Shown piece by piece: positions 14,550 to 17,137 of a stretch of DNA of 32,156 bases. Under the pieces are notes generated by a model. The model was not told the origin of the DNA, did not search any database, and was given only the letters and a program-made list of their open reading frames with translations. The position numbers were made by a program, and so were the translations under genes. Each line of letters begins with the position of its first letter. Within the stretch, counting starts at the first letter, position 1. Origin of the DNA: Candidatus Sodaliphilus limicaballi (lineage in GTDB: Bacteria; Bacteroidota; Bacteroidia; Bacteroidales; Muribaculaceae); the NCBI GenBank assembly GCA_018065815.1, contig JAGHSP010000373.1:1-32156 (forward strand), written 5' to 3'.

Positions 14550-16070
14550 ATGAGGTTTTACAAGCTACTAATTAGTTTATGTGTGGTGGCATTTCTCGTT
14601 TCATGCAGCAACAAAAACGATGAAATGCTGAAAGTTATCCCTGCCGATGCTGTGGGCGTTGTCAGTGTGGATGTCCCTAATATATTGGAAAAAAGCGGCA
14701 TGCTGAGTGGGTCGGGAGATTTTACGATGCCTGAATCGCTGCAAGCAATCGTTGACGAGAATGATGAATCTACATTCAGCAAAATGCTCATTGACCTGCC
14801 TGAAATGGGAGTTGATCATGATTGCAAAGTATTCTCGTTCTATACGTTGAAGACATTCGGCTCGGTAGTGCTCATGGGCATAGACGATGAAGATGCAGCC
14901 CGCAAGGTGATTGAGCGTCGTGCCGGTAAGGATTTTGCCGATGTTGATGGTTTGAACTGTATTTCGGTGGGGGATGATTTCTATGCCTTGCATGATGGGA
15001 TATTTTTCCACGCAACAGTAAACAAACCGCAGGAAGTGAGCAAACTCTCGGCCGCTGCGCGGAATATGCTCGCCCGCACATCGAAGTCAATACTTGACAA
15101 CAGCGAAGTGATGGAGTGCTTGAATGCCGAGAATGACGTGAATGCTTACATGCTGCTCGACGGAGTGAAACTCTTGTCGAAGCGTAGCAAAACTTATAAG
15201 GAGATGTCGGAGAAATTCCCTCTCATTGACATTTTTGTGGAGAGTGATATCAAAGCGTATGTTGCCTCGGCCAATTTAAATGAGGATTCTGCCGAACTGG
15301 AAGTGAAGATCCTGGCCGACGATAACAGCGAGTATGTTCAGTTGCTGTCGGGCACACTGGGCAAACCAACGGCCGACTTCTTGAAATCAGTGCCTGAATC
15401 AATGGAGAACATTGTGTCGATGAGCGTGAAAGGCGAGAAATTTGTTGAGCTTCCTCAAATTGCTACTATGATAGAGACCTTCAAGAAAACTCCGTTCATA
15501 GGACGGCTGGATATAGAATCAATATTGAAGACTATTGATGGTCCTGTGGCAATGGGTATGGCAAAGGATCCTAACCTTGACGACTGGAATGCCGTTGTCA
15601 CTGCATGCTCAACCACGCCCGATGATGTGCTCAACCAGTTGAAGGCTTTCGCCGCATCAATGGGCCAGCAACCTGAGATATATGACAACGAATACATCTA
15701 TGAGTATGACAACAAGATGGTGAAACTGGGCAACAGCAATGGCTCGCTATACATGAAGATGCTCAACTATGAGCAGACCGAGGGCTATGCTTATGACAAT
15801 GCCGATGCACGTGAGTTCTTCTCAAAATCTCCCATGGGCATTTATGTGCGCGCTAAAGACAATAAAGGAGGAAGCATTAAGTTTGGTCTTGTAGACATAC
15901 GCAATTTAAAGGGTACATTCATCCCTGCACAGAAAGGCGCAAATGCCATAGTTGCATTGTTGCAAGTGCTTTGCAGCATTGAACCCGTGCGTGAATATGA
16001 GGATGGAGGAACCGACGAACTTGAAGATGTTATGCCAGTTGCAATTGATGAGCTTAAACCTGTAAATTGA
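14550..16070 (+). CDS. DUF4836 family lipoprotein
   Basis: Lipobox MRFYKLLISLCVVAFLVSCSNKN; IPADAVGVVSVDVPNILEKSG pattern. Preceded by TTG-N19-TAAATTTG. Confidence 0.8.
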   Translation: MRFYKLLISLCVVAFLVSCSNKNDEMLKVIPADAVGVVSVDVPNILEKSGMLSGSGDFTMPESLQAIVDENDESTFSKMLIDLPEMGVDHDCKVFSFYTLKTFGSVVLMGIDDEDAARKVIERRAGKDFADVDGLNCISVGDDFYALHDGIFFHATVNKPQEVSKLSAAARNMLARTSKSILDNSEVMECLNAENDVNAYMLLDGVKLLSKRSKTYKEMSEKFPLIDIFVESDIKAYVASANLNEDSAELEVKILADDNSEYVQLLSGTLGKPTADFLKSVPESMENIVSMSVKGEKFVELPQIATMIETFKKTPFIGRLDIESILKTIDGPVAMGMAKDPNLDDWNAVVTACSTTPDDVLNQLKAFAASMGQQPEIYDNEYIYEYDNKMVKLGNSNGSLYMKMLNYEQTEGYAYDNADAREFFSKSPMGIYVRAKDNKGGSIKFGLVDIRNLKGTFIPAQKGANAIVALLQVLCSIEPVREYEDGGTDELEDVMPVAIDELKPVN

Positions 16071-16076
16071 TTAGTT

Positions 16077-16445
16077 ATGAAAAATGGAAAGAAAGTGTGC
16101 AACGAGTTGAAGCGTGTGCGCAAGCAGATAGCCGATGCTAACGATATAGTATATACTCCCACAGAGTGCAACCACAAGGGCGACTGCAAGGGTACATGTC
16201 CTGCCTGCGAGGCCGAAGTGCGTTACTTGGAAAATCAGCTGAACTTGCGCAGCATGCTGGGCAAGGCGGTGGTTGTTGCCGGACTCGGACTTACTGTGGC
16301 GTCTTGTATCCCTGGCGGCGGACACATGGGGTCTGTGCCAAATCAAAGTATTGACACTGTGTATGAGCTTGAAGGCGATGTAGTTGCCGAGATTGACTCG
16401 ACAACGCTCACTGATAGCATTGATGTCAAGGATATTAACAAATAA
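16077..16445 (+). CDS. Small Cys-rich protein with internal TM/lipobox, candidate radical SAM partner or substrate
   Basis: CX5CX3CX2C (CNHKGDCKGTCPAC), then hydrophobic LGKAVVVAGLGLTVASC and a hydrophilic Asp/Glu/Thr-rich tail. 6 nt after the DUF4836 stop; radical SAM gene downstream. Confidence 0.75.
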   Translation: MKNGKKVCNELKRVRKQIADANDIVYTPTECNHKGDCKGTCPACEAEVRYLENQLNLRSMLGKAVVVAGLGLTVASCIPGGGHMGSVPNQSIDTVYELEGDVVAEIDSTTLTDSIDVKDINK

Positions 16446-16495
16446 ATGCATGAGTGCAGCAAAGCACTCATGTTGATTTAGTAAGGTTTTCGGCA

Positions 16496-17137
16496 GTGTC
16501 AAGTACAGAATCAAAAGAAATCCTAGCTCCTATACTTGCGGTGAGTCGTCATCGCCTTGCACTTGATGGCAATGGCGTTGTGACGCTTGTCGCGTTCATG
16601 GGTTGTCCGCTCCGGTGCGAGTATTGCTTGAACGATTTTTGCCATAACATGGATAGGGTGCCTCGCCGTGTGACGGTGCAGCAGTTGATCGACGAGGTGA
16701 TGATAGATAACCTTTATTTCCTGGCAACTGACGGGGGCATTACCTTTGGCGGCGGCGAGCCATTGCTTCAAAGCCGATTTATTGAGTCGTTTTGCCAGAG
16801 TTGCGACACGCGTTGGAATATCACTCTTGAAACATCGCTTAATGTTCCGCTTGAACATCTTGAACGTGTATTTCCTCATGTCAACAATTATATCATTGAC
16901 ATCAAGGACATGAATCGCGAAATATATGAAAAATACACGCAACTGTCACAAAATAATTTGCTCACTAACCTTGGGTGGCTAATGAGCAAACCTGATATTT
17001 CCAGCAAGGTGACAGTGAGATTACCTCACATTCCGTCATATAATGCCCAAGAGGATGTGGACCGTAGCCGTGAAATTCTTGCCGAAATGGGCGTTGTTAA
17101 CTTTGACGAGTTTAATTACATCGTCAGGAAGAAATAG
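16496..17137 (+). CDS. Radical SAM protein (glycyl-radical-activase-like)
   Basis: GCPLRCEYCLN (CX3CX2C), GGITFGGGEPLL, TLETSLNVP, IIDIKDMN. The start is uncertain: GTG 16454 (inside a hairpin) or GTG 16496. Confidence 0.88.
   Translation: MSSTESKEILAPILAVSRHRLALDGNGVVTLVAFMGCPLRCEYCLNDFCHNMDRVPRRVTVQQLIDEVMIDNLYFLATDGGITFGGGEPLLQSRFIESFCQSCDTRWNITLETSLNVPLEHLERVFPHVNNYIIDIKDMNREIYEKYTQLSQNNLLTNLGWLMSKPDISSKVTVRLPHIPSYNAQEDVDRSREILAEMGVVNFDEFNYIVRKK

Follow-up and report, generated by a model that had tools for sequence, protein, structure and literature searches.

The radical SAM enzyme PflA abstracts hydrogen from a glycine in a short hydrophobic-x-Gly loop (RVSGYAV, with the hydrophobic residue at -2), and small glycyl radical proteins of the GrcA/YfiD type are partners of the PflA-type enzyme. 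Radical SAM peptide maturases that modify cysteines also exist, and the families TIGR04133 and TIGR04134 comprise a Bacteroidetes radical SAM protein found beside a putative lipoprotein. We analyzed a stretch of 32,156 nucleotides from "Candidatus Sodaliphilus limicaballi" (GenBank assembly GCA_018065815.1, contig JAGHSP010000373.1; here, the window), in which a PflA-like radical SAM gene directly adjoins the gene of a 122-amino-acid (aa) Cys-rich protein. We propose, with a probability of roughly 55%, that the radical SAM enzyme has the small protein as one of its targets: the conserved N-terminal domain of the small protein (the Cys domain) recruits the enzyme, which modifies a glycine motif in the tail.

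The original prediction, made from this DNA alone, had described a 122-aa protein with a CX5CX3CX2C cluster, a YLENQLNLR segment, a hydrophobic stretch, and an internal VASC, encoded between a DUF4836 lipoprotein gene and a radical SAM gene containing GCPLRCEYCLN. The reading frames of the locus agree with this description (Table 1): the DUF4836 gene occupies positions 14550 to 16070, with its stop codon 7 bases upstream of the small-protein start, and the radical SAM frame includes the GCPLRCEYCLN segment. The downstream of the two GTG codons listed for the radical SAM gene is the more likely start, because relatives begin near it and because a predicted hairpin separates the two genes. No T-run follows the hairpin on the + strand. 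The hairpin could reduce the output of the radical SAM protein relative to the small protein and may in this way set their stoichiometry.

Table 1. Features of the small-protein and radical SAM genes in the window
Feature	Position	Strand	Basis or description
Small-protein gene, 122 aa	16077..16445	+	Cys domain, hydrophobic signal/TM segment, and predicted disordered tail with glycine motif
Cys domain (residues 1-58)	16077..16250	+	Predicted helix 3-21, Cys loop, predicted helix 42-60
Hydrophobic segment and lipobox-like V-A-S-C (residues 62-77)	16260..16307	+	Sequence, relatives
Possible degenerate second motif HMGSVPNQ (residues 83-90)	16323..16346	+	Sequence; compare LSGLVPNQ in locus L046
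Glycine motif LEGDV (residues 98-102)	16368..16382	+	Motif searches of tails
Intercistronic hairpin	16443..16480	+	15 pairs, MFE -16.8 kcal/mol, z -2.67
PflA-like radical SAM gene	16454..17137	+	ORF from GTG 16454; probable start GTG 16496, 213 aa

The Cys domain of the window protein contains C31-x5-C37-x3-C41-x2-C44, followed by the YLENQLNLR helix. Among 138 nonidentical relatives, 16 positions were invariant (G4, C8, L11, R15, A19, N22, I24, C31, G35, C37, G39, C41, P42, C44, E45, and E47), giving the domain five invariant cysteines when C8 is counted. AlphaFold places two helices around the Cys loop at moderate to good confidence; from residue 70 onward, confidence is low, consistent with disorder. 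No Pfam or NCBIfam model names the domain (the first ~60 residues) or the paired radical SAM clade, sequence and fold searches returned no solved structural relative of the domain, and no copy was found among viruses in IMG/VR. A link to PG0870_Nterm (NF040506) was rejected at 14 bits against a cutoff of 50; such subthreshold matches also appeared in 11 of 14 unrelated control genomes and are therefore chance. The window protein holds one copy of this conserved, unnamed domain.

The domain and the radical SAM clade were found almost exclusively together. Of 247 evenly sampled Bacteroidales genomes, 7 carried the Cys domain and the same 7 carried the radical SAM clade, with the genes adjacent in every case (Fisher test, 9.8e-14, phylogeny ignored). 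Clade members scored 263.9 to 328.6 bits, and the next radical SAM protein in any of the 247 genomes scored 120 bits. Within the window's family (198 genomes), 55 genomes carried the domain, 53 the enzyme, and 51 both. Both genomes with the enzyme alone have truncated radical SAM genes, and one of the four with the domain alone has a truncated radical SAM gene at a contig end. By their coordinates, the partners share a contig and lie no more than about 2 kb apart in all except four of the 51 shared genomes. A Cys domain was likewise present in the surrounding DNA read at 111 of 115 distinct radical SAM loci, a figure partly biased by the way that the loci were fetched; at 8 of these 111 loci, the enzyme and the domain are fused in one open reading frame. 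A single radical SAM gene is often accompanied by several Cys-domain genes in the same genome. Both are distributed patchily, family f59 having the domain in 31 of 251 genomes and family f22 in 6 of 9, and a phylum-wide sample contained the domain only in the window genome and one other (G360), both of Bacteroidales. Co-occurrence, adjacency, and natural fusions, all read from genome sequences, strongly support a functional pairing of the domain with the enzyme clade. The original prediction had been staked on co-occurrence of the two genes and on the enzyme not tracking a glycyl radical enzyme elsewhere, and it withstood both comparisons, as the clade follows the Cys domain.

The radical SAM protein carries CX3CX2C at residues 51/55/58 and lacks the ferredoxin insert, the C-terminal part of PflA, and a SPASM domain. 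Radical SAM superfamily membership is clear (PF04055, 41.5 bits against a cutoff of 29.5); Radical_SAM and Fer4_12 are its only Pfam domains, and enzymes of the clade have about 205 to 230 aa. The AlphaFold model (pLDDT 89.7) finds its best PDB matches among radical SAM enzymes. The nearest sequence in a profile search was Escherichia coli PflA (E=7e-24), which also provides the nearest solved fold (Foldseek TM 0.77), and the second structural match is the PflA-peptide complex, crystallized with the Gly-loop peptide. The window enzyme is a shortened PflA relative. Assignment as a glycyl radical enzyme activase was not supported: the clade follows the Cys domain rather than glycyl radical enzymes, and scores fall below the curated cutoffs (TIGR02494, 121 bits versus 174; TIGR02493, 96 versus 232).

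Behind the Cys domain, the window protein has a hydrophobic stretch ending in the lipobox-like residues V74-A75-S76-C77. A lipobox-like Cys follows the hydrophobic stretch in 88 of 137 relatives, an AxA-like signal peptidase I site takes its place in 36, and the remaining 13 fit neither simple pattern. Given these two kinds of site, the internal stretch has the behavior of an h-region within an extended signal peptide. As VASC follows the hydrophobic stretch in the manner of signal peptidase II lipoproteins, C77 is predicted to be lipidated. A start at Met60, which would give a normal lipoprotein signal, was rejected, as Met occupies this position in just 12% of relatives. The tail of the window protein is acidic, and the tails of the family are hypervariable, acidic, Gly-rich, and predicted to be disordered; the earlier expectation of a variable tail behind a conserved Cys part proved correct. 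Among 137 members, a TonB_C domain follows in 65 and a CarboxypepD-like domain in 29; the majority of the rest have a short tail only. In other lineages, the hydrophobic stretch is absent and the Cys domain stands ahead of HIRAN or serpin domains, or it forms a stand-alone protein of 79 to 88 aa.

The otherwise hypervariable tails share a motif, L-x-G-[D/E]-[V/I], in one to four copies. Around glycine in 58 nonredundant tails, we found enrichment of L at -2 (z=12.9), of D/E at +1 (z about 4), and of V (z=12.4) and I (z=5.1) at +2. Per 1,000 aa, L.G[DE][VI] occurred 2.96 times in tails, 0.04 times in 95 other putative lipoproteins from the same contigs, and 0.12 times in other open reading frames, making it 25 to 70 times denser in tails than in other proteins. 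The strict motif is carried by 14/33 to 58% of members, depending on the set, and a relaxed pattern by 91%, yet 55% of other lipoproteins have the latter too. The motif lies in short lipoprotein tails, just before TonB_C, around CarboxypepD, and, where HIRAN or serpin domains are present, in the segment linking them to the Cys domain. G-x-[VIA] precedes the PxFPGG of TonB_C in 27 of 59 proteins with a Cys domain versus 0 of 6 without, the latter being a small control. The window protein has one strict copy; its second is only possible, as the H at -2 misfits the hydrophobic position.

Several loci differ in their gene content. An operon shared by genomes G007, G031, and G077 (L115, 4944-11734; L132 and L133 are similar) encodes the radical SAM protein and a 79- to 88-aa Cys-domain protein together with a DUF1848 protein, a protein of ~1,250 aa, and a candidate defense gene (PADLOC PDC-S51, E=5e-102 in G007), and it is possibly a defense-like branch. 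Neither the G007-type Cys-domain proteins nor those of G968 had the motif in the tail or small gene examined, and LFGDI in the DUF1848 protein was rejected as a motif, since its orthologues do not conserve it. Genome G783 (L184, 1429-3186) pairs the radical SAM gene with an 85-aa Cys-domain protein and a different downstream gene. Tandem arrays of six (L111, 5992-9939) and four (L094, 5093-8063) Cys-domain genes have divergent tails and no radical SAM gene within the DNA examined. At L130 (6898-8865) and L178 (310-1716), a Cys domain without a signal peptide is fused to a serpin (with HIRAN also in L130); these are apparently cytosolic serpins in Bacteroidales.

The main argument for assigning the Cys domain as leader, the motif as target, and the radical SAM protein as enzyme comes from a domain swap. 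In family f22, the Cys domain sits on the C terminus of the radical SAM protein, with neither signal peptide nor tail, and in 6 of 6 such genomes the next gene, 13 to 34 bp downstream, encodes an acidic protein of 61 to 92 aa (MLI[DNK]D...) in which the motif appears two or three times. The motif glycines are among its conserved positions, G32 and G60 being invariant. One genome (G175) joins all parts in a single chain, in the order radical SAM, Cys domain, several motifs, and HIRAN. The Cys domain is thus attached to the motif protein in some lineages and to the enzyme in others, the behavior of a recruiting module. The original prediction had offered the small protein as a substrate (RiPP-like or a modified lipoprotein), an electron donor, or a chaperone. 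The substrate role gains support, because the hypervariable tail holds a recurrent glycine motif that resides on a separate small protein where the Cys domain is joined to the enzyme; the Cys domain itself could still act as an electron donor or a chaperone. That interpretation is thus partly supported, and it lacked the motif, the TonB_C, CarboxypepD, HIRAN, and serpin paralogues, and the fusions.

In the mechanism that we propose, the Cys domain would recruit the PflA-type enzyme in the cytoplasm; the domain is predicted to form a hairpin of two helices enclosing a Cys loop, which probably holds a metal or Fe-S cluster. The enzyme would then modify hydrophobic-x-Gly-x-hydrophobic motifs, LEGDV being that of the window, in the disordered part of the protein that follows the domain, and one enzyme would serve several target genes per genome. 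Hydrogen atom abstraction at or next to the motif glycine, before export, would be the most plausible chemistry. As PflA acts on a hydrophobic-x-Gly loop, the motif glycine is the obvious candidate for the site of attack; attack at its C-alpha and the nature of the final product are speculative and drawn by analogy, and we speculate that a stable product is likelier than a stored radical in exported tails. In proteins of the window type, the Cys domain and hydrophobic stretch would double as an extended signal peptide, leading to export of the modified tail; where a lipobox exists, signal peptidase II would remove the leader and the tail would be lipidated. Conservation, co-occurrence, adjacency, and fusions establish the pairing at the sequence level, as enrichment and conservation do the motif; from these we infer that the Cys domain recruits the enzyme, that the motif is modified, and that export follows. 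A short motif can, as a counterpoint, be a binding site instead of a modified one.

The strongest competing explanation, which we consider unlikely, makes the Cys domain a working part of the enzyme, supplying an auxiliary Fe-S cluster or acting as an electron donor in trans, with the tails and motif otherwise employed and the substrate elsewhere. It would suit an enzyme without the ferredoxin insert of the longer TIGR02494-type activases, the five invariant cysteines, and the enzyme-fused domains of some lineages. A few Cys-domain members also weakly match the Fe-S families HdrC and GlcF (E about 0.005 to 0.008). However, many Cys-domain proteins per genome for one enzyme would be odd for an electron donor, and the glycine motif is left unexplained. 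It is rather improbable that the enzyme modifies the Cys domain itself, for example by thioether or other Cys crosslinks, with the motif serving as the docking site of an export factor, a surface factor, or some other partner. The invariant cysteines do lie within a substrate-like N terminus, and Cys-modifying maturases offer a precedent, but the domain is conserved over its whole length, as a folded module for recognition would be, copies fused to the enzyme would have to modify themselves, and both soluble proteins lacking a signal peptide and trans proteins lacking a Cys domain carry the motif.

Still less probable is that the motif merely reflects the composition of acidic disordered tails, the function of the pair lying elsewhere. 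The tails are indeed rich in acidic residues and Gly, but the motif does not reach such density in shuffles of the same composition or in the 95 other lipoproteins. In an independent set of 33 linkers and tails unused in defining it, 14 carried L.G[DE][VI], versus 0.5 expected and a maximum of 4 in 1,000 shuffles. Motif glycines were also kept in 73% of related pairs, compared with 44% for other tail glycines, although homology among short disordered tails is hard to judge. An orphan activase acting in trans on an NrdD or PFL elsewhere, with the neighboring gene incidental, is largely refuted: it has in its favor the PflA fold, the sequence kinship, and one weak Gly_radical match in the window genome, but that match is the only one there and lies on another contig (C9), as the original prediction of no glycyl radical enzyme near the pair would have it, genome G396 has this radical SAM protein and no Gly_radical match, the clade tracks the Cys domain, and the C-terminal part of the activases is absent.

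Returning to modification of the motif by a recruited enzyme, we tentatively suggest, at less than even odds, a wider generalization. The system may represent a new class of radical SAM modification, in which the glycine of short L-x-G-D/E-V motifs is the point of attack for a PflA-type enzyme in proteins that have no other relationship (lipoproteins, TonB-like transducers, and CarboxypepD, HIRAN, and serpin proteins), all brought to it by one portable Cys-domain leader that also acts as an extended signal peptide or can be enzyme-fused. If true, Bacteroidales of the gut, rumen, and mouth would possess an unrecognized protein-modification system in which a relative of glycyl radical activases modifies proteins instead of activating a glycyl radical enzyme. 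Its targets could be found from sequence alone through the leader domain and a five-residue motif, which together would make a genetically encoded tag, and many "TonB family" and hypothetical lipoproteins would gain a first functional handle.

With PflA and the TIGR02493 and TIGR02494 activases, the window enzyme shares the CX3CX2C, GGGEP, and D-x-K motifs and its nearest sequence and fold; it differs in scoring below every curated cutoff, in missing the C-terminal PflA part and the ferredoxin insert, and in being tied to the Cys domain with no glycyl radical enzyme partner. Like GrcA/YfiD, the 122-aa protein is small, has a glycine motif, and is paired with a PflA-type enzyme, but it has no Gly_radical domain, and the family has multiple short motifs in mostly exported tails. 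The TIGR04133/TIGR04134 pair likewise sets a radical SAM gene beside a putative lipoprotein in Bacteroidetes, and we know of no Cys-domain leader for that pair. Membership was rejected for both families: TIGR04133 was not among the best 25 of 37 NCBIfam families for the window enzyme and therefore matches no better than E=0.003, and TIGR04134 did not match the window protein and matched 1 of 137 relatives at E=0.009. A mining study of Bacteroidales RiPPs describes GG-motif/PCAT systems and makes no mention of TonB (PMC10352776). Among open-licence papers, we found no description of the Cys-domain/radical SAM pair, which apparently belongs to a hitherto undescribed system for protein modification in Bacteroidales of the gut and mouth. 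Its nearest known kinds are the TIGR04133/TIGR04134 pair and the radical SAM RiPP systems, whose defining features it shares in part. No RRE or SPASM/twitch match was found in the enzyme, and no dedicated peptidase or transporter was seen at the loci examined. As in radical SAM RiPP systems, small hypervariable targets, some as tandem paralogues, carry a conserved leader-like domain and a core with recurrent motifs beside the enzyme; here, however, a Cys domain joined to a signal peptide serves as the leader, and complete TonB_C, CarboxypepD, HIRAN, and serpin domains are found among the tails.
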